Virus record (IMG/VR): IMGVR_UViG_3300037010_002261
Location: 1-64,000 of that record
Source: a virus
Strand: one strand, 5' to 3'
Length of the DNA: 64,000 nucleotides
In this document: piece after piece, positions 12,994 to 41,081 of the stretch
How positions within the stretch are numbered: the stretch's first letter is position 1
How the letters are laid out: each line of letters opens with the position of its first letter
Notes under the pieces: generated by a model
Seen by the model: the letters and a program-made list of their open reading frames with translations, nothing else
Told to the model about the DNA's origin: nothing
Database searches by the model: none
Translations under genes and position numbers: made by a program

Positions 12994-14925
12994 ATGACGA
13001 CCCTTCTAGAAGACTTCGACACATCCTTCAGCAAGTCCCGGAAAGAGGAGACCCTTACCTTCACCGAGTTCCTCCAACTGGCAAAGAAGGACCCATCGGT
13101 CTATGCTTCGCCGGCGCAACGGATGCTGAAGGCTATCGGAGAGCCCTCCCTGATTGACACCCGCAACGACCCGCGGCTGAGCCAGATCTTCTCCAACAAG
13201 ACCATCAAGGTCTATCCCGCCTTCGCCAACTTCTACGGCATGGAGGACGCGGTCGAACAGATCGTGGCCTACTTCCGGTCGGCGGCTGACGGCCTCGAAG
13301 AGTCCAAGCAGATCTTGTACCTGCTGGGCCCGGTCGGCGGCGGCAAGAGCTCGATTGCGACTCGCCTCCGCGAGCTGATGGAGCAGGAGCCTGTCTACGT
13401 CATTGACGGCTCGCCTGTCTTCGAGAGCCCACTGTCCATCTTCAACACCCCTGAGCTGCAAGACAAGCTCGAAGCTGACTTTAACATCTCGCGCACGGCC
13501 ATCCGCACCATTCCGTCTCCGTGGCTGATCAAAAAGCTCGAAGAGGTCGGCAGCATCGGCAGGCTGAAGGTCCGCAAGCTCTACCCGTCGCAGCTGCGTC
13601 AGCAAGCTTCGATGCGCGTCGAGCCGGGCGACGAGAACAATCAGGACGTCAGCGCGATGGTCGGCAAGCTGAACATTCGCATGATTGAGAAGTTCGAGCA
13701 GGACCACCCATACGCCTACAGCTTCTCAGGCGGCTTGAACCGCGGCAACAACGGCATCGTCGAGATGGTCGAGATGTTCAAGGCGCCGATCAAGATGCTG
13801 CACCCATTGCTGACCGCGACCCAGGAGCGCATGTACGCCGGCACCGAAGCCATCGGCTCCATCCCGTTCGACGGTATCATCCTGGCCCACAGCAACGAGA
13901 GCGAGTGGTCCACCTTCCGCAACAATAAGAACAACGAGGCCTTCCTGGACCGCGTCTGCATCGTCAAGGTCCCGTACTGCCTGCGCGTCACCGAAGAGCA
14001 GCAGATCTACGAGAAGCTCATCCGCAACTCCGAAGTCGGCCGCACCGCCAGCATCGCTCCAGGCACCCTGAAGATGTTGGCTGAGTTCTGCGTCATGTCC
14101 CGCCTGATTGTGCCGCAGAACAGCACGCTCTTCTCGAAGCTGCGCGTCTATGACGGCATCAACATCAAGGCCGAGGACCCGAAGGCAAAGCCCATCCAAG
14201 AGTACCGCGATGATGCGGGCGTCAAGGAAGGCATGGAGGGCCTGAGCACCCGCTTCGCCTTCAAGATGCTGTCGAAGACCCTGGCGTTCGACAACGAGGA
14301 GAAGGCAGCCAACCCAATCCACCTGATGTACGTGCTGAAGACCCAGATCCCGCAGGAGCAGTTCCCGAAGGAGAAGGAGCAAGGCCTGATCGAGCTGATC
14401 GACGGCGTGCTGCAGGAGAAGTACCTCGAGTTCCTGGAGAAGGACATCACCACGGCCTTCCTGGACAGCTACAGCGAGCTGTGCCAGAACATGCTCGAGC
14501 AGTACTACTACTACGCTGACGCTTGGGTGCAAGGCAAGGACGACTACCGTGACCCGTCGACCAACTCGGTCCTCGAGCGCGAAGACCTCGACCGCGAGCT
14601 GAGCAAGACGGAGAAGCCCGCAAGCATCTCCAACCCCAAGGACTTCCGGAACGACATCGTCAACTTCATCATCCGCTACCAAGCGCAACATGGTGGGAAG
14701 CTGCCGGCTTGGAACTCCTACGAGAAGATCCGCAGCGCAATCGAGAAGCGCGTGATCGGCAACATCGACGAGCTGCTGCCCGTCATCTCGTTCGCGCCGA
14801 AGCGCACCGAAGAGGACACGAAGAAGCATCGCGACTTCCTGTCTCGCATGCGGACCCGCGGCTACACCGAGCGTCAAACTCGCATCCTGTGCGAGTGGTT
14901 CATGCGCGTGCGCAAGTCGAGCTAA
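12994..14925 (+). CDS. prkA: PrkA-type serine protein kinase (YeaG-like)
   Basis: 643 aa, the size of bacterial PrkA. Seen: an AAA+ part with Walker A GPVGGGKSS near residue 111, SPLSIFNTPELQ, a conserved block VEMFKAPIKMLHPLLTATQE and IPFDGIILAHSNESEW; then the C-terminal kinase-like region with FDNEEKAANP and a final basic stretch. Known: PrkA (E. coli YeaG) is a nutrient-stress kinase encoded with YeaH, and SpoVR/YcgB is its usual third partner. Both partners occur downstream here (16662 and 18548), so the phage carries the complete module. Its use in infection is unknown. Confidence 0.9.
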   Translation: MTTLLEDFDTSFSKSRKEETLTFTEFLQLAKKDPSVYASPAQRMLKAIGEPSLIDTRNDPRLSQIFSNKTIKVYPAFANFYGMEDAVEQIVAYFRSAADGLEESKQILYLLGPVGGGKSSIATRLRELMEQEPVYVIDGSPVFESPLSIFNTPELQDKLEADFNISRTAIRTIPSPWLIKKLEEVGSIGRLKVRKLYPSQLRQQASMRVEPGDENNQDVSAMVGKLNIRMIEKFEQDHPYAYSFSGGLNRGNNGIVEMVEMFKAPIKMLHPLLTATQERMYAGTEAIGSIPFDGIILAHSNESEWSTFRNNKNNEAFLDRVCIVKVPYCLRVTEEQQIYEKLIRNSEVGRTASIAPGTLKMLAEFCVMSRLIVPQNSTLFSKLRVYDGINIKAEDPKAKPIQEYRDDAGVKEGMEGLSTRFAFKMLSKTLAFDNEEKAANPIHLMYVLKTQIPQEQFPKEKEQGLIELIDGVLQEKYLEFLEKDITTAFLDSYSELCQNMLEQYYYYADAWVQGKDDYRDPSTNSVLEREDLDRELSKTEKPASISNPKDFRNDIVNFIIRYQAQHGGKLPAWNSYEKIRSAIEKRVIGNIDELLPVISFAPKRTEEDTKKHRDFLSRMRTRGYTERQTRILCEWFMRVRKSS

Positions 14926-14929
14926 AGCT

Positions 14930-15250
14930 ATGCCACTCCAGTATGACGACGTCCCAGGCAGCTGGGGCACAGGCTCTCGGGAGTGGCCTGCCCTTGTCTT
15001 CCCTACGAGCGACCTTGCTCGTAGGGCCTACATCGCTTGCACTAAGGCGAACGTAGTCCCCTACGGCAGCTACGTGCTGATGGATGACACGAACTATCCA
15101 CGCCAGTGGAAGAACGGCAAGGCTACCACTGAGCTGCGGATCGAAACGATTCCGCTCCGCGACAAGCTGGAGGAGTACCTCTATGCAAGCCCCTACAAGA
15201 CCTATGAGGACTTGAGGGATCACTACATCAAAGAAGGACTCTGGAAATGA
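14930..15250 (+). CDS. Hypothetical protein
   Basis: 106 aa, starts 4 nt after the PrkA stop. Contains GSYVLMDDTNYPRQWKNGKA and ends with YEDLRDHYIKEGLWK. No domain recognised. Same operon as PrkA by spacing. Confidence 0.55.
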   Translation: MPLQYDDVPGSWGTGSREWPALVFPTSDLARRAYIACTKANVVPYGSYVLMDDTNYPRQWKNGKATTELRIETIPLRDKLEEYLYASPYKTYEDLRDHYIKEGLWK

Positions 15251-15366
15251 GCAACACAACCCTCCTCACCGTCGCCGCCTTAGGCGTCATCATAGTCGGC
15301 GCCCTCGCCGCATGTGTCAACATCATGCTTGGCCGTTACAAAAGCTACGACGGCTCTGGAGATTGA
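15247..15366 (+). CDS. Single-pass membrane microprotein
   Basis: 39 aa: MSNTTLLTVAALGVIIVGAL then ACVNIML and a polar tail. One transmembrane helix. ATG overlaps the upstream stop (ATGA). A Cys after ALAA could be a lipobox-like site, but no proper N-terminal charge precedes it. Confidence 0.45.
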   Translation: MSNTTLLTVAALGVIIVGALAACVNIMLGRYKSYDGSGD

Positions 15367-15403
15367 GGATGTGATACAATTGGCAATGTCTTAGGAGATC
15401 GCC

Positions 15404-15595
15404 ATGTACATCCTCATCTTTGTCGTCACCTTCATGTCTACCGTTCAAGGTCCGTCCAACAGTCAGCTGACCACGGCCACGATTCAGCAACAGCATGGGT
15501 CCAAGGACCGATGCGAAGCCGCTCTCAAGCAGCTGAGGCTGAACATCGAAGGCACCGGCTCCCAAGTTCGCATCGCTCAATGCACTCAGATGTAA
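15404..15595 (+). CDS. Small secreted or membrane-anchored protein
   Basis: 63 aa with a hydrophobic N-terminus (MYILIFVVTFMSTVQG) that could be a signal or anchor, and two Cys in the polar remainder. TACAAT at 15375-15380 followed by TTAGGAG gives a plausible start region, though no -35 is visible. Confidence 0.45.
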   Translation: MYILIFVVTFMSTVQGPSNSQLTTATIQQQHGSKDRCEAALKQLRLNIEGTGSQVRIAQCTQM

Positions 15596-16020
15596 AGTAC
15601 GACCGGCATTACCTAACCGTTGACGCGGCTAGGAGCTTCAAGCTAGCCATCGCCGACTGTCAAGCTAGCTGCCCAGAAGACGTAGACCCTCGGTTGCATG
15701 AACTGCAGCTCGAGGGCATGAATAGCCAGCTAGAATCGTTGCTCGCTGAGCTCGACGAGCTTGAGGCTGAGCTGATCGCACCCTGCTCGCACTGTGGGCG
15801 TGTGCCCAGCGAGGACCTCTCTGACACTACCTACCCTGCTGGCCGTGACGGCACTTGGCTTGTCTGCTGTTCCTTTCCAGAAGGTGGCTGTGACGTTGAA
15901 GCTCGAGGACCCACGCGTACAGCAGCAATCGAAAATTGGAACAATGGACTCGCGCATGCACAACCCCCTCTCGACGAAGCACAATCTCCGCGTCGTAACT
16001 GGCGGCCAAACCGGGGTTGA
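15580..16020 (+). CDS. Lar-like zinc-ribbon protein
   Basis: 146 aa from ATG 15580. A helical N-terminal half with an E-rich coiled coil (LESLLAELDELEAELIAPC) leads into CSHCGR ... WLVCCSFPEGGCDVEARG and TAAIENWN. The CxxC ... C...C and final A-x-x-x-W-N match the Lar/restriction-alleviation-like zinc ribbon seen in many phages. Anti-restriction function is only suggested. Its end overlaps the next gene by 77 nt. Confidence 0.5.
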   Translation: MHSDVKYDRHYLTVDAARSFKLAIADCQASCPEDVDPRLHELQLEGMNSQLESLLAELDELEAELIAPCSHCGRVPSEDLSDTTYPAGRDGTWLVCCSFPEGGCDVEARGPTRTAAIENWNNGLAHAQPPLDEAQSPRRNWRPNRG

Positions 16021-16624
16021 CCTCGCAGGCCTGCGAGCCGCACAATGCGTAGGCCTTCGCACAGGTGGCCTCGCCCCGACTGGCTTTAAAACCACAGCCG
16101 GCGGCAAGCCTGCGCTGGCAAAGACATTCGGCCTGACCGAATGCCACGGTGGCTATAGCTACCGCACTCGCAAGAACGTGCAGGAGAGCGACGCAACGCT
16201 TATCATCGCGCACGACATGGAGTCGAGCGGCACAAGGCTAACAATCGCCGCAGCAGAGACCTCGCAGAAGCCGATCTACAAGCTCGTGCTAGGTGGTGAC
16301 GGGTGGCGAACAATGGTCAAGCAAGACACGGTCAACGCCGCTGTCGCTTGGCTGCTTGCTGAGATCGCCGATCGCGAGGACTTCACGCTCAACGTTGCTG
16401 GCAACAGCTCGCTGACTTGCTCAGGCATCTTCATCCCAGCGTTCCTTCACTTGCTCAAGATTTTTGAAGCCGCTGCGCTGAAGGTTGACGCCGAGGCCGC
16501 ACAACCGATTCAGGTTCTTGTACAGCGCTACTTCCAAGACGGTCACCTCACGCAGGCGCTGAATGACAACTTTGACTACCACGGTGAGCTTGATCCCCGT
16601 GGGTTAAGGGGACTGATTGTCTAA
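15944..16624 (+). CDS. Putative molybdenum-carrier/SLOG-fold protein
   Basis: 226 aa from ATG 15944 (ATG 15956 is an alternative). The N-terminal 110 residues carry VVTGGQTGVDLAGLRAAQCV, GLAPTG and a later ESSGTRLTIAAAE, the signature of the putative molybdenum-carrier/lysine-decarboxylase-like SLOG family that binds nucleotide-type ligands. The last 100 residues are unrecognised. It sits between PrkA and YeaH genes. Molybdenum binding is a database family name, not something I can show; a nucleotide-sensing role is equally possible. Confidence 0.65.
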   Translation: MDSRMHNPLSTKHNLRVVTGGQTGVDLAGLRAAQCVGLRTGGLAPTGFKTTAGGKPALAKTFGLTECHGGYSYRTRKNVQESDATLIIAHDMESSGTRLTIAAAETSQKPIYKLVLGGDGWRTMVKQDTVNAAVAWLLAEIADREDFTLNVAGNSSLTCSGIFIPAFLHLLKIFEAAALKVDAEAAQPIQVLVQRYFQDGHLTQALNDNFDYHGELDPRGLRGLIV

Positions 16625-16661
16625 GCAATAGATACAATCATACCAGAGGAATAGGAAGACC

Positions 16662-17972
16662 ATGGCAATCATCATCGATCGCAGGAAGGCCGCAAACCGC
16701 GACCGAACCTCTGAAAATCGCGGCAGGCTGCTGCGGCGCTACAAGGGTGCAATCAAAGAGCAGCTGCCGAAGATCCTAGGCGATCGCAAGCTGCTCGACT
16801 CGATCAAGGGAGGCGGCGGCAAGGTCACCGTTCCCAAGCGTGACCTCTCTGAGCCCCAGTTCACTTACGGTGAAGGCGGCATGAAAGACACGGTCCTGCC
16901 AGGCAACAAGGACTGGGTCGAGTACGACACAGTGCCTAAGCCTGAGAGCGGCGAAAGCGGTGGGGCAGGTGACGGTCCTGACGGCATGGACGAGTTTAGC
17001 ATAGTGCTGTCCCGTGACGAGTTCCTCAACATGCTCTTCGAGGACTGCGAGCTGCCGTTTATGCTCGAGACCCTGCTGGCTAAGCAGACGGAAACCGTGC
17101 ATGAGAACGCAGGCTTCCAAGTTGCAGGCTCGCCCAACCGGCTGTCGGTGATCCGCTCCTACAAGAACTCGAAGGCCCGCCGCTTGAGCTCGGGCGCTAT
17201 GATCGGCGCTGAGTTGAAGGAGCTCGAAGAGGAATTCAACAGGCTCACGGCTGAAATGGTCGATAACGACCTACCGCTTGACCATCCGACATCGAAGCGC
17301 GTGTTCGAGCTACGTGACCAGATCGCTGAGCTGTTGCGCCGTAAAACCGTCTTGCCGCTCTTTGACTCATCTGACCTCCGCTTTCGGACTCGAATCGAGA
17401 AGAAGGTGCCGAAGACGCATGCTACGATGTTCATGCTGATGGACAACTCGGGCTCAATGGGTGAACGCGAGAAGACCATCGCCCGCAAGTTCTTCATCCT
17501 GCTGTACCTCTTCCTCGACCGCAACTACGATCAGATCGACCTGCGCTTCATCTCACACACGACTGAAGCCGAAGAGCTGCCCGAGGATGAGTTCTTCAAC
17601 ACCCACAAGAACGGCGGCACGATCGTGTCGTCGGCGCTCGACCTGCTAATTAAGTGCATCGAGTCCCTGAGAGGCAAGACCAACATCTACGTTGCGCAGG
17701 TCTCCGACGGCGACAACACAGGCACCGACAACGGCACTTGCAGCGAGCTGCTGATCGATGACATCCTGCCGTATGTCAACTACTTCGCCTACGTGCAGGT
17801 AGAGCAGGAAGGAGCACAGAACAGCTCGCCGTCCTACTACTCGCGCAATAGCCTCTGGTCAACCTACTCGGCGCTCAGCGATGCGCACCCCAACCACGCT
17901 TCCAAGCAAGTCTACCATGAGCGGGACATCTTCGGCGTTTTCCACGCATTCTTCTCCACCACCAAGACATGA
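16662..17972 (+). CDS. yeaH: YeaH/YhbH-family (DUF444) VWA protein
   Basis: 436 aa, matching the family size. N-terminal MAIIIDRRKAANRDRTSENR and LLRRYKGAIKEQ are hallmarks of YeaH. A von Willebrand A core follows near residue 260: MLMDNSGSMGEREKTIARKF (MIDAS DxSGSM), then HTTEAEELPEDEFF and GGTIVSSAL. Known: encoded with PrkA in bacteria and thought to act with it in stress adaptation. GAGGA precedes the ATG. A TACAAT at 16633-16638 may be a -10 without a clear -35. Confidence 0.9.
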   Translation: MAIIIDRRKAANRDRTSENRGRLLRRYKGAIKEQLPKILGDRKLLDSIKGGGGKVTVPKRDLSEPQFTYGEGGMKDTVLPGNKDWVEYDTVPKPESGESGGAGDGPDGMDEFSIVLSRDEFLNMLFEDCELPFMLETLLAKQTETVHENAGFQVAGSPNRLSVIRSYKNSKARRLSSGAMIGAELKELEEEFNRLTAEMVDNDLPLDHPTSKRVFELRDQIAELLRRKTVLPLFDSSDLRFRTRIEKKVPKTHATMFMLMDNSGSMGEREKTIARKFFILLYLFLDRNYDQIDLRFISHTTEAEELPEDEFFNTHKNGGTIVSSALDLLIKCIESLRGKTNIYVAQVSDGDNTGTDNGTCSELLIDDILPYVNYFAYVQVEQEGAQNSSPSYYSRNSLWSTYSALSDAHPNHASKQVYHERDIFGVFHAFFSTTKT

Positions 17973-18178
17973 AAATCCAACTCACCGCATTGACCGTCAA
18001 GCACATCTTCGGTCGCTCCCTTGTCACTTGTGTTCCCAGGGACGAGAACGGCAAGATGCTCGGAGCTGAACAGCCGCTCGCTTCATACCTCAACGAGATT
18101 AAGAAGTCCGATTACGAGATCATCAACGCCCAAGAGGTACTTCAATGCGTCGTCGCGCAGTATGGCTTTGGTGCCTAG
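17969..18178 (+). CDS. Hypothetical protein
   Basis: 69 aa, ATG overlapping the YeaH stop (ATGA). Unrecognised. Its last 34 nt overlap the lipoprotein gene. Confidence 0.55.
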   Translation: MKIQLTALTVKHIFGRSLVTCVPRDENGKMLGAEQPLASYLNEIKKSDYEIINAQEVLQCVVAQYGFGA

Positions 18179-18555
18179 CGCTCCTTGTTGGCTGCGAGGC
18201 CAGCATCAATGTTGAAAGTCATCCGATCGTTGCAGCTCCGCAAGCTACCGTTCGCAATGGCATCGTCGAGCTTCGCAAGGACAACCTCTTGGCTCACGTC
18301 ACGGTAGCTCGAGGCGGTAAGGTTCCCATTACGTTCACGTTGCTCGAGAACCTTGACGACAAGACCAGCTACGTCTCGCGGACTGAGCATGACTGCAAGG
18401 CCCGCACCTCTACCATCAAGTTCCTCGTGGCTTATGACGCCGACTCAAATGCGGTGCAAGAGTCCACGATGAACACCAAGATCGTGATGGAGCCTGGCTC
18501 TATCAGCGAAGCTCAGCTCAATCTCGCCTGCCCCAAGGAGGGTCCCAATGTCTGA
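18145..18555 (+). CDS. Predicted lipoprotein
   Basis: 136 aa. N-terminus MRRRAVWLWCLALLVGCEAS is a basic n-region, hydrophobic core and lipobox LVGC, so Cys17 should be lipidated and the protein anchored in a membrane. The rest is beta-rich (KVPITFTLLENL). It lies inside the YeaH-SpoVR interval and overlaps SpoVR by 8 nt. A surface exclusion role is a guess from location in phages. Confidence 0.6.
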   Translation: MRRRAVWLWCLALLVGCEASINVESHPIVAAPQATVRNGIVELRKDNLLAHVTVARGGKVPITFTLLENLDDKTSYVSRTEHDCKARTSTIKFLVAYDADSNAVQESTMNTKIVMEPGSISEAQLNLACPKEGPNV

Positions 18556-20125
18556 AGATAGCAAGCTCCTGTTCACGTCGGGCGCCGACTGGAATGAAGA
18601 GCTCCTCCGACGCTGCTGGGAGGAGTGCAAGGTCATCGCGCAAGAGGACATGCGCCAGACCTACTACGAGCCTCAGATTGAAGTGGTCTCGGCCGCACAG
18701 ATGCTCGAAGCTTATACCTCAAGCGGCTTGCCGGTCTGGTACTCGCACTGGTCATACGGCAAGGAGCTGGTCAAGTCGGAGGCAGACTACAAGAAGGGCC
18801 TCATGGGCCTGGCGTACGAGATCGTCATCAACTCGAATCCCTGCATCGCCTACCTGATGGAGGAGAACAACGCGTTGGTCCAACTGTTGGTCATCGCGCA
18901 CGCATCGATCGGCCACTCCGCTGTCTTCAAGAACAACTTCATGTTCAAGAACTACACGGACGCGGCGGGCATCGTCAGCTACCTGAGCTTCGCTCGCCGT
19001 TACATCTTGATGTGCGAAGAGCGCTACGGCGTTGACGAAGTCGAAGCGGTGCTTGACGCGTGCCATGCACTGAGCCTGTACGGCACAGACAGCGCTAAGC
19101 GGAACCGCGCTCTGAACTCTGAGCAAGAGGAGAAGAAGGCCATCGAGCGCTTTGCTCAGCAGCTGTATGACTATGACGCTGTGTGGCAGAAGGTCGGCAA
19201 AGGCTTGGTCGACAAGGCAAAGGCTGACCAAGCACCGCCTGCCGAGGATGACGAAGAAGGCTTGCTCGCAGAGCCGCAAGAGAACCTCCTCTACTTCATC
19301 GAGAAGCACGGCAAGATCCCAGCGTGGAAGAAGGAGCTCATCCGCATCAACCGGATGATCGCTCAGTACTTTGACCCACAACGCAAGACCAAGGTGCTGA
19401 ATGAGGGCTACGCTACCTTCACTCACTACTACATCCTCAACAGGCTGTATGACAAGGGCCTAATCGACGAAGGTTCGATGCATGAGTTCTTCCGAATGCA
19501 CTCGGGCGTCATCGCGCAGCGTGCGCAAGCCGCCTTCAACCCGTACAAGCTCGGCTTTGAGATCTTCATGTCCCTCAAGGCTGCCTGCGAGGATGGCTGC
19601 AAGGACCCCGATGACGAGCCGTACCACGGCCACTTGAAGGGGCAACCGTGGCAGGATGTCTTGCAAGAAGCCATGATGAACTATACCGATGAGACCTTCA
19701 TCCTGCAGTTCTTGGCGCCGTCGGTAGCGAAGAAGCTCGAGATGTTTGCGATCCGTGACCACGGACTCTATGACGAAGAGTACCTAATCACCGAGGTGGC
19801 TCGTCCTGAGTCCTTCCGTGAACTGCGCGCTAAGCTGGCCGCACAGTACCACATCTCGCGCTACAAGCCTGACATCCAGGTCATCGGAAACGACGATGAC
19901 GTGCTAAGGTTGAAGCACTTCGTTGTCAACAACCGCCCCCTCAACGAAGAGCAAGCCAATGACGTGATCGCGCATGCCTCCTACCTTTGGGGCGGCACGG
20001 TCAAGCTGACGATGTACATCGATGACGGCGACGGTGAAACCAGCGTGCCGCATGTCATCATGGCCCTCAACGGCGCAAGGGTTGAGAACAGCATCGATAT
20101 CGGCTGGGGCGTGTTTACATTCTGA
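18548..20125 (+). CDS. SpoVR-family protein (YcgB-like)
   Basis: 525 aa, as in the family. Signature stretches: LPVWYSHWSYGKELVKSEAD, YEIVINSNPCIAYLMEENN, VIAHASIGHSAVFKNN, GTYFTHYYI-like YATFTHYYILNRLYDKG, and a C-terminal REL...YHISRYKPDIQV. Known: SpoVR is a spore-cortex protein in Bacillus, and its YcgB homologue works with PrkA and YeaH in enterobacteria. It completes the phage module. The start overlaps the lipoprotein gene. Confidence 0.9.
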   Translation: MSEDSKLLFTSGADWNEELLRRCWEECKVIAQEDMRQTYYEPQIEVVSAAQMLEAYTSSGLPVWYSHWSYGKELVKSEADYKKGLMGLAYEIVINSNPCIAYLMEENNALVQLLVIAHASIGHSAVFKNNFMFKNYTDAAGIVSYLSFARRYILMCEERYGVDEVEAVLDACHALSLYGTDSAKRNRALNSEQEEKKAIERFAQQLYDYDAVWQKVGKGLVDKAKADQAPPAEDDEEGLLAEPQENLLYFIEKHGKIPAWKKELIRINRMIAQYFDPQRKTKVLNEGYATFTHYYILNRLYDKGLIDEGSMHEFFRMHSGVIAQRAQAAFNPYKLGFEIFMSLKAACEDGCKDPDDEPYHGHLKGQPWQDVLQEAMMNYTDETFILQFLAPSVAKKLEMFAIRDHGLYDEEYLITEVARPESFRELRAKLAAQYHISRYKPDIQVIGNDDDVLRLKHFVVNNRPLNEEQANDVIAHASYLWGGTVKLTMYIDDGDGETSVPHVIMALNGARVENSIDIGWGVFTF

Positions 20126-36039: not shown

Positions 36040-36462
36040 ATGACAACCAACATCGACAACCTGCTGCTGCAGGCCTCCCGCCAGAAGTGGCGCTTCGACA
36101 CGCCGAAGGGCGCGCTGGCCATCGAGGACCTGTGGGACCTGCCGCTGACCTCGGGCACCGGCAAGGCCAACCTGGACGACATCGCCAAGTCTCTGTTCCG
36201 CAAGGCCAAGGCCGACAATGACGAGCCGACCAGCTTCGTCACGGCCAGCGCCAAGCCGGCTGACGTCGTCACGCCGCTGAAGCTCGAGGTCGTCAAGTAC
36301 GTCATCGACGTCATCTCGACCGAACGCACGGCCGCCGCCAACGCCGCCGCTCGCGCCGCTCAGCGCCAGCTGGTGATGAAGGCCATCGACGACAAGAAGG
36401 CCAACGCCATCAACGACATGTCCGTCGAGGACCTGCAGGCCCTGCTGGAATCGCTGAAGTAA
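36040..36462 (+). CDS. Conserved phage protein next to the DUF2135-like gene
   Basis: 140 aa. IDNLLLQASRQKWRFDTPKG, ALAIEDLWDLPL, LEVVKYVIDVI and a helical Ala-rich end; I recall the same neighbour pair from other large phages. AAAGGAAG ribosome site, 32 nt after the upstream gene. Function unknown. Confidence 0.6.
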   Translation: MTTNIDNLLLQASRQKWRFDTPKGALAIEDLWDLPLTSGTGKANLDDIAKSLFRKAKADNDEPTSFVTASAKPADVVTPLKLEVVKYVIDVISTERTAAANAAARAAQRQLVMKAIDDKKANAINDMSVEDLQALLESLK

Positions 36463-37063: not shown

Positions 37064-37242
37064 GCAAGCACGTCATCCCATCGACGCAACCGATGAGTAA
37101 CCAGCCGATGGAGGCTATCATGTAGCGCAAGCTATGCATATGATCACACAATAGAGAACTCATCTTTTATACTGTCCAGGAAAGATGGTTGGGCTTACGT
37201 ATATGGCGAAAGCCTGGGCTTGACACAGGACTTTCCAAAAGC

Positions 37243-37329
37243 GCGCCCGTGGTGAAATTGGTAGACACACCAGGTTTAGGTCCTGACGCCAGCAGTGGCG
37301 TGCCGGTTCGAGTCCGGCCGGGCGCACCA
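37243..37329 (+). tRNA. tRNA-Leu (TAG)
   Basis: Acceptor GCGCCCG / CGGGCGC as in tRNA-Leu(CAA), encoded CCA, loop TTTAGGT in stem CAGG/CCTG, long variable arm (GCCAGCAGTGGC), T-arm GCCGG TTCGAGT CCGGC. The final A of CCA starts the next ATG. Confidence 0.88.
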
Positions 37330-37607
37330 TGAGAGACAATCTGTTCACCGAGATCTTCGCCGACCTTTCGAGCCCGCCATACGTCGCGTTCGGCGGCAAG
37401 GCTCCCGAGCCTCAAGAGCCTGGGGCTCACGCCATCGCGGACGCAGTCTGCGAGATGCTGCAGGCTCGCATCCAGCTCCGGCAAGCTCAAGCCAAGGTGC
37501 CGAGCTACACCGGGCAGTGGAGCGACCAGGACTACTGGCAAACGGAGCTCGGCCAGTATAACGCCGCATGCGATAAGCTGGCGAAAGCCTTGCGAAGCGG
37601 GCCGTGA
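37329..37607 (+). CDS. Hypothetical protein
   Basis: 92 aa starting on the CCA end of tRNA-Leu. PGAHAIADAVCEMLQARIQL then a helical end. No ribosome site except tRNA sequence, so translation probably needs the unprocessed transcript or another signal. Confidence 0.55.
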   Translation: MRDNLFTEIFADLSSPPYVAFGGKAPEPQEPGAHAIADAVCEMLQARIQLRQAQAKVPSYTGQWSDQDYWQTELGQYNAACDKLAKALRSGP

Positions 37608-37918
37608 ACCGCGCCTTCTGCCTCCAGCTGCAAGACGCATTGCTGACGGCAGGCTATGATGACGCTTCGCTGAAGTACCTGAGCGACAGCATCGCGACCT
37701 TCACGCTGTCGCACAAAGGCGTCATTCGGCGCATGGGCATCGAGGTGACGGTTCCTGGGCACGCTCGTGTGCATGAAGGGCATGACCCTGACAGAGAGCC
37801 GCTCCTCATCGACTACGAGACGGTCGCTGAGCTTGCAACCGCGATCTTTGACCGTGACCCAGGCGCGCATGACGTGCCTGACTTCAAGCACTTCACAGGA
37901 CTCAACGATGAAACGTGA
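37604..37918 (+). CDS. Hypothetical protein
   Basis: 104 aa from GTG 37604 (GTGA overlap). FCLQLQDALLTAGYDDASLK and a mixed alpha/beta remainder. Unrecognised. Confidence 0.55.
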   Translation: MNRAFCLQLQDALLTAGYDDASLKYLSDSIATFTLSHKGVIRRMGIEVTVPGHARVHEGHDPDREPLLIDYETVAELATAIFDRDPGAHDVPDFKHFTGLNDET

Positions 37919-40047: not shown

Positions 40048-40319
40048 GCAAGAACAAGCTCCTGGAGCTTCAACAAACGTTCATCGACCGACTTGCGCTT
40101 GACTATGACGTGGTCCTGCGGGACAAGAAGCTGCACGTGATGCGGGGCACACGGATCATGATCCACGCTGTCTTCATGGAGACCGTGGATCAGGTGATGC
40201 TGGCGTTCTTCACCGGCAACCCGATCTTCTTCGTGTGGTCAGAGGATGGGCCTGCTTACATCGCCAAGATCGGCGTTGAGCGTTTGCACAAAGAGCTCGA
40301 CAAGAATCCGTGGAAGTAA
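40044..40319 (+). CDS. Hypothetical protein
   Basis: 91 aa, ATGA-coupled. KLLELQQTFIDRLALDYDVV then a beta-rich half. Similar in opening pattern to the 41189 protein (LLLAQQELVDKLDDSYDVRI), so the two are likely paralogues. Confidence 0.55.
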   Translation: MSKNKLLELQQTFIDRLALDYDVVLRDKKLHVMRGTRIMIHAVFMETVDQVMLAFFTGNPIFFVWSEDGPAYIAKIGVERLHKELDKNPWK

Positions 40320-40322
40320 ATA
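40316..40322 (+). promoter_or_regulatory. GTAAATA box before the tmRNA
   Basis: Late-type box overlapping the stop of the 40044 gene and lying directly upstream of the tmRNA acceptor piece. Confidence 0.4.
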
Positions 40323-40324
40323 AG

Positions 40325-40586
40325 AGCTGAACAGCGTAAACTGAAGGTAAGAAAAGCGGCGACACCCGGGTTCAATTCCCGGCACCTCCACCCAAGCACA
40401 TATCATGTGTTCTTCGGTGGGGGTGACTTGGCGATCGACCGACGCGTAGTATGACCATAGGCGCTCGATAGGTGACTGCCGTAAGCAGCGCAAAGCATTA
40501 CAAACGCAAACGACTCTGTCTACGCGATGGCGGCCTAATAAGCCTTCGGAGTTCGTAGCCGTACTTGGCAACAGAAACGGCTACAC
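40325..40586 (+). ncRNA. ssrA: Circularly permuted (two-piece type) tmRNA
   Basis: The tRNA-like 3' end comes first: T-arm CCGGG TTCAATT CCCGG (40366-40382), acceptor CACCTCC (40383-40389), A, CC. A short spacer with hairpin CACAT/ATGTG follows, then the mature 5' end GGGGGTG (40419-40425), which pairs perfectly with CACCTCC and forms a G3-U70 wobble, the alanine identity pair. Next comes TGGCGATCGACCGACG, like the tmRNA 5' consensus. The tag frame 40506-40538 reads ANDSVYAMAA then TAATAA. A stem CTGC-CGTAA-GCAG (PK1-like) precedes the tag, and GTAGCCGT/ACGGCTAC (40555-40584) closes it. Exact ends and helix P2 are not resolved. Known: rescues stalled ribosomes with SmpB;permuted genes give two RNA pieces. 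Confidence 0.9.
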
Positions 40587-41081
40587 CCCTTCAGGATATA
40601 CCCACGTCCTCTTACCGTCAACGACGGCAATTTTCCTGCCTGTAATTGTCTTAGACAATTTTTCAGCTGACTTGCGTCCATTTTCAGCTGCATTGGGATT
40701 CTTTACCCCTTTGTTCCAGGCAGGTTTCCCCGTGCCTTTCCCCTTTCGGCCTTCGCTGATAGCTTTACAATAGTCTTCAGACATTGTCTTGCCTGCATTC
40801 CATGGCAATTGACCTTTCTTGCGACCGACTTTCTGATTGTAGTACTTGGTATTGTACTCACAGTCCTTAATTCTGGCTAGTAGATCCCATTCTAGCTTTC
40901 GAATCTCTTCAATGTCGCTGATCTTAAGGATTCGACGCTTGAAGTCTTGAGGTCGATAGTGATATTCACCATTGAACCAACGCGACGATGAGGTGTAGCT
41001 GTCTGTCGGTACTCCTTCATGAGAGCCGATGTAGTACATGTTACGCAACGAGTCGCGCCAGAGATAGATGAAGCCTTGCAT
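40581..41081 (-). mobile_element. GIY-YIG homing endonuclease gene
   Basis: 166 aa CDS. MQGFIYLWRD...NMYYIGSHEG is the GIY-YIG motif, with the R and E of the core in FKRRILKISDIEEIRKLEWD. The C-terminal half has NUMOD3-like repeats (LPWNAGKTMSE, PAWNKGVKNPNA). AT-rich compared with neighbours. Its stop lies inside the closing hairpin of the tmRNA, so the element sits against that gene. Confidence 0.88.

Follow-up and report, generated by a model that had tools for sequence, protein, structure and literature searches.

A circularly permuted tmRNA gene of the betaproteobacterial type in a T4-related phage

Introduction

The mycobacteriophages Bxz1 and Wildcat encode a tmRNA, and in both the gene has the standard one-piece order. 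Among bacteria, two-piece tmRNAs, which are encoded by circularly permuted genes, have been described mainly from three clades (PMC11915505). They are also present in phages; a count of phage tmRNAs gave 53 two-piece forms among 133 unique structures, and a two-piece tmRNA has been published for the T4-like Methylophilales phage Melnitz (PMC9004378). When the Melnitz genome (MZ577097) was checked, its tmRNA was found to be of the alphaproteobacterial type (RF01849, 106.7 bits), with the tag ANDNYVPVDYALAA and a glutamine riboswitch at the tmRNA end. The gene of Caulobacter phage CcrPW is also alpha-type. Mycobacteriophage DS6A carries a TLD-only RNA, which is without a tag frame (PMC4131195).

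The betaproteobacterial type is represented in bacteria by the Rfam families RF01850 and RF04321 (Rhodocyclales, Cupriavidus and relatives). Among phages, a beta-type permuted gene is found in the T4-like Stenotrophomonas phage Marzo and its relatives (Menderavirus), where it is annotated as tmRNA; Mendera and Moby are described as T4-like. The beta-type gene is also found in Alcaligenes phage QDWS595 and in Xanthomonas phage XacN1, in whose record it is unannotated and whose paper leaves a tmRNA unmentioned (PMC5852040). Near the XacN1 gene are two CTA-anticodon tRNAs (36047-36205 and 37201-37621) that are program-called as tRNA-Pyl/Sup.

Results

Architecture of the gene

The DNA analysed here, referred to as the window, is a stretch of 64,000 nucleotides that forms part of a 90,151-base IMG/VR virus record. 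At positions 40333-40590 the window encodes a tmRNA of the betaproteobacterial type, in circularly permuted (two-piece) form (Table 1). A first-pass annotation, made from the sequence alone, had read a permuted tmRNA at this locus and had proposed a covariance-model check. With all Rfam 15 models searched against the stretch 40325-40586, this check gave matches above cut-off, and well outside what chance would produce, to both tmRNA_permuted (RF04321; 96.7 bits, cut-off 47, E 1.5e-17 for the 64-kb window) and beta_tmRNA (RF01850; 86.7 bits, cut-off 84, E 1e-24). ARAGORN also calls a permuted tmRNA, with the tag ANDSVYAMAA followed by two stops, and the codon positions bear out this tag as it was first read.

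Table 1. Features of the tmRNA gene and its immediate surroundings (window coordinates)
Feature	Position	Strand	Basis
GTAAATA box, possible late-type promoter	40316..40322	+	sequence, TAAATA enrichment
Acceptor RNA piece (3′ tRNA half, first in gene)	40328..40392, 5′ end approximate	+	Rfam alignments, ARAGORN
Outer inter-piece helix P2, 5′ strand AGCGU (partner 40461-40465)	40333..40337	+	Rfam alignment
Inner inter-piece helix P2, 5′ strand GCGGCGA (partner 40439-40445)	40356..40362	+	covariation alignment
T-arm, 5-bp stem CCGGG/CCCGG, 7-nt loop UUCAAUU	40366..40382	+	sequence, fold, covariation alignment
Acceptor stem 3′ strand CACCUCC, U70 = 40387	40383..40389	+	sequence, fold
Discriminator A (40390) and encoded CC (40391-40392) of CCA end	40390..40392	+	sequence
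Intervening loop, 26 nt, predicted excised; hairpin extending acceptor stem	40393..40418	+	fold, alignment
Acceptor stem 5′ strand GGGGGUG, G3 = 40421; coding piece begins here	40419..40425	+	sequence, fold
Inner P2 helix, 3′ strand CCGACGC	40439..40445	+	covariation alignment
Outer P2 helix, 3′ strand GCGCU	40461..40465	+	Rfam alignment
Tag reading frame ANDSVYAMAA (GCA..GCC, 40506-40535) and two UAA stops (TAA TAA, 40536-40541)	40506..40541	+	ARAGORN
3′-terminal hairpin of coding piece, GUAGCCGU/ACGGCUAC, loop ACUUGGCAACAGAA	40555..40584	+	Rfam alignment, fold
Homing-endonuclease-like ORF (GIY-YIG/NUMOD3 type), neighbour outside the RNA	40581..41081	-	phrog_314 E 2.4e-10; weak NUMOD3

The 3′ tRNA half comes first in the gene, followed by the intervening loop and the 5′ tRNA half. 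Sequence, ARAGORN and the Rfam alignments agree on this permuted order, in which the T-arm and the acceptor 3′ half precede the 5′ half. The acceptor stem forms all seven pairs at the positions originally proposed, including G40421-U40387, the G3-U70 pair, and the T stem is paired at 5/5 positions. The CCA tail is encoded only in part, with ACC followed by C and the final A absent; bacterial beta-type genes are likewise incomplete, whereas Marzo encodes CCA. A loop hairpin that extends the acceptor stem is present in the window copy and in relatives; at alignment pair 65/96 the relatives show UA/CG/GC/AU covariation, and the window has a C-C mismatch. The loop of the terminal hairpin resembles that of the beta model.

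The window gene shares with the RF01850/RF04321 family its gene order, the G3-U70 acceptor stem, the loop hairpin, P2, a ten-residue tag starting with AND, the terminal hairpin and the incompletely encoded CCA. It differs from the bacterial genes in its phage location, in its strongly diverged sequence, and in having ANDSVYAMAA in place of ANDERFALAA. The Menderavirus and XacN1 genes are also beta-type permuted tmRNAs of T4-related phages, but have longer excised loops and the tags VAANDDSYTVRIAA and ANANTFDYALAA. Melnitz shares a permuted tmRNA in a T4-like phage and differs in type, tag and riboswitch. With Bxz1 and Wildcat the likeness is that of a phage-encoded tmRNA, and the DS6A RNA differs in being without a tag frame.

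Pairing between the two pieces

In the window, the P2 helix that joins the two pieces is paired at 5/7 positions in its inner part and at 5/5 in its outer part, with bases that differ from those of relatives. The outer helix in relatives is UGUUGU/ACAACA or UGCUGU/ACAGCA; the inner helix is GCGGCGA/CCGACGC in the window where it is otherwise UGUUCAA/UUGGGCA.

Covariation was assessed in alignment A1, which holds 19 permuted tmRNAs from viral contigs. Helix cells are paired in 94.2% of cases, against 39-50% with slid partners, a control that keeps the relatedness of the sequences. Cells changed on both sides number 67, against 18.2 in shuffles, and 0/500 shuffles reached 67; the shuffle control ignores relatedness. 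In the inner P2 helix no pair is invariant, and still 97.7% of the cells are paired; 6/7 pairs are changed on both sides among the 19 sequences. The search pattern itself set the acceptor stem, which adds no covariation evidence. These comparisons indicate that the helices of viral permuted tmRNAs are held by compensatory changes.

P2 is absent from the minimum-energy fold of the window sequence. The folding energy of the window core is no better than that of shuffles (z -0.8 to -1.1), and several relatives have z near -4. Since folding energy fails to separate the window sequence from shuffles, covariation was relied upon.

The tag

The MAA end of the tag, which the first-pass annotation had pointed out as unusual and as a possible influence on proteolysis, is present in the ARAGORN call, but it is no oddity. 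ANDERFAMAA is the tag in a Rhodocyclaceae bacterium (L056), and ANDEAFLMAA and ANDEKFLMAA are found in other viral contigs. The bacterial beta-type tags recovered in this analysis have the form ANDERFA[L/V/I/M]AA and end in LAA, VAA, IAA or MAA, and a hydrophobic substitution at the third-last residue is therefore probably tolerated.

Other tags in the collection depart further from the common form. A viral tmRNA at 5085-5412 of contig L014 has the tag ANDSVYARAA, in which arginine replaces the hydrophobic third-last residue. A Bacteriovoracaceae contig (L114) has a standard-order tmRNA call with the tag VESNDFSYAMAA, also with an MAA end. Some viral permuted tmRNAs (L003, L013, L017, L021, L038, L004, L026 and L031) are read with tags of 24-33 residues; several show a second ANDxxFALAA-like stretch, and others an LAV or FAV end. 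These may be either long tags or the result of a misplaced resume codon.

Relatives in viral and bacterial DNA

A word-11 blastn search with the window locus against 50,697 phage records gave no match. Relatives were therefore sought by a structural pattern composed of the T-loop, the acceptor strands and the loop. This search yielded 38 viral contigs, with an RF01850 match in 37/38 (above cut-off in 32) and ARAGORN tags read in most. The same pattern in bacterial genomes is found mostly in Rhodocyclales and other Betaproteobacteria.

A tree was built on a short core of ~140 bases, and its use is limited to the separation of viral from bacterial copies, the support for the exact neighbours of the window copy being 0.63. 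Two tmRNAs from the viral collection (L008 and L033) group with bacterial copies, and these contigs are probably bacterial DNA. None of the remaining viral copies is placed within the cluster of bacterial ones, and the window copy, whose beta-model score is modest, has the longest branch among them. In all, a beta-type permuted tmRNA is present in ~35 viral contigs. Judged by these sequences, such tmRNAs have a wide distribution among phages, and those infecting Xanthomonas and Stenotrophomonas are included.

The ANDSVYAMAA tag also occurs in L028/L125, but this copy was rejected as a case of independent conservation, as it is 100% identical to the window over 13 kb. The sole further instance of this tag thus belongs to the same phage and gives no independent sign of selection on the window sequence itself.

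The carrier phage

The window phage has genes for RIIA, RIIB, UvsX, gp32 and a T4-type TerL, and also DNA helicases. The T4 major capsid protein, gp23, is found only in a longer record of 113 kb, in which the 13 kb compared show 100% identity. By TerL, the nearest named phages are Xanthomonas phage XacN1 (39.7%, the nearest), Stenotrophomonas phages CM1/RAS14 and Pseudomonas phage PA5oct. Gene content and TerL similarity thus place the phage among T4 relatives, and by its inferred size it is probably a jumbo phage. Together with ARAGORN and the Rfam models, the T4-type genes uphold the first reading, in which a T4-related phage encodes a permuted tmRNA of its own. The suggestion that such a gene is new to T4 relatives does not hold, given that of Melnitz (PMC9004378) and the beta form in T4-like Stenotrophomonas phages.

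SmpB was not found in the window's record or in 45 others, in a search that was positive in 10/14 control genomes. The phage RNA would therefore need SmpB of the host. Elsewhere in the window (12994-20125), genes for PrkA kinase, DUF444 (YeaH) and SpoVR lie side by side, so that the phage carries a cluster of host stress type.

Sequences adjoining the gene

The T4 late promoter is a TATAAATA box used by the late sigma factor. A GTAAATA sequence lies directly upstream of the tmRNA gene, where it had first been noted. Its TAA (40317-40319) also terminates the preceding ORF, and the sequence aligns to the part 'gUAuAAU' of the beta_tmRNA model, so that the copy at 40317 sits at the model's -10-like UAuAAU. 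TAAATA is found at 20 sites in the window against 4.6 expected, with no shuffle reaching 20, and some of these copies include stop codons. The motif often stands just before genes. Owing to this enrichment and placement, TAAATA may be a late-promoter element of the phage, and the GTAAATA at 40316 is a plausible candidate for a late-type box; late transcription of the tmRNA is plausible too.

On the other side of the gene, the homing-endonuclease-like ORF, on the opposite strand, shares its 3′ end with the final bases of the tmRNA's terminal hairpin. Its product may home into the tmRNA locus.

Discussion

We consider it very probable that the locus is a functional beta-type permuted ssrA of a large T4-related phage, which would trans-translate during infection. 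This reading starts from the observed gene architecture, model matches, pairing conserved among relatives and T4-related context; expression, processing, charging, tagging and benefit are what we infer. Against it count the divergence of the window copy (longest viral branch, modest beta score) and its folding (P2 outside the minimum-energy fold, core energy no better than shuffles). A single precursor would begin with the 3′ tRNA half and the short hairpin loop, continue with the 5′ tRNA half and then the tag, and end in the terminal hairpin. Host RNase P and tRNA 3′-end enzymes would excise the 26-nt loop and complete the CCA, and the two mature pieces would be held together by the acceptor stem and P2. 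Host alanyl-tRNA synthetase would charge the RNA via G3-U70, host SmpB, EF-Tu and ribosomes would serve trans-translation in the infected cell, and ANDSVYAMAA would be added to stalled chains. Charging via G3-U70, SmpB binding and tagging are expected because they are established tmRNA biology. A likely benefit to the phage would be that ribosomes and amino acids are kept available during degradation of host transcripts.

The phage RNA might instead bind SmpB and alanyl-tRNA synthetase as a decoy, damping host trans-translation without tagging by itself. A molecule similar to the DS6A TLD-only RNA inhibits tmRNA, perhaps by SmpB titration (PMC4131195), and a decoy role fits with the negative searches for a phage SmpB. 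However the tag frame, the resume region, the two stops and the 3′ hairpin are all retained, none of which a decoy would need, and intact tags recur in related phages; we regard this explanation as unlikely. Slightly less likely again is a decaying gene, taken from a host or another phage, that has lost its function. Its long branch, the C-C mismatch in the loop stem, the P2 mismatches, a folding energy near that of shuffles and the adjoining homing endonuclease gene could all be seen in this light, but neither the seven acceptor pairs nor the T-arm nor any part of the tag is damaged, and both Rfam cut-offs are passed. In addition, P2 bases have changed on both strands while 5/7 and 5/5 positions are still paired, which is unexpected from decay.

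A misclassified or chimeric contig with the ssrA of a bacterium is a reading that is largely refuted, and we give it next to no weight. The viral collection does hold contigs whose tmRNA groups with bacteria, such as L008 and L033, but phage genes lie on both flanks of the tmRNA across the window, the window tmRNA groups with phage copies rather than bacterial ones, and the identical longer record has gp23.

The ssrA of Xanthomonas and Stenotrophomonas is held to be one-piece. The two-piece form in phages of these hosts therefore suggests a beta-type lineage owned by phages rather than recent capture from a host, as judged from a handful of named phages. A wider proposal, which we offer tentatively and consider rather doubtful, is that large phages maintain their own beta-type two-piece lineage and so deliver a second rescue RNA to one-piece hosts, with a tag set and control that are the phage's own.

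In view of Melnitz, Menderavirus, XacN1 and the other cases, the window tmRNA is a divergent addition to the phage-encoded two-piece tmRNAs. Phages commonly have the betaproteobacterial form, and among them are cultured phages of Xanthomonas and Stenotrophomonas. Laboratory phage-host pairs can thus serve to test whether ribosome rescue is run by the phage during infection, and for what reason in the split form.
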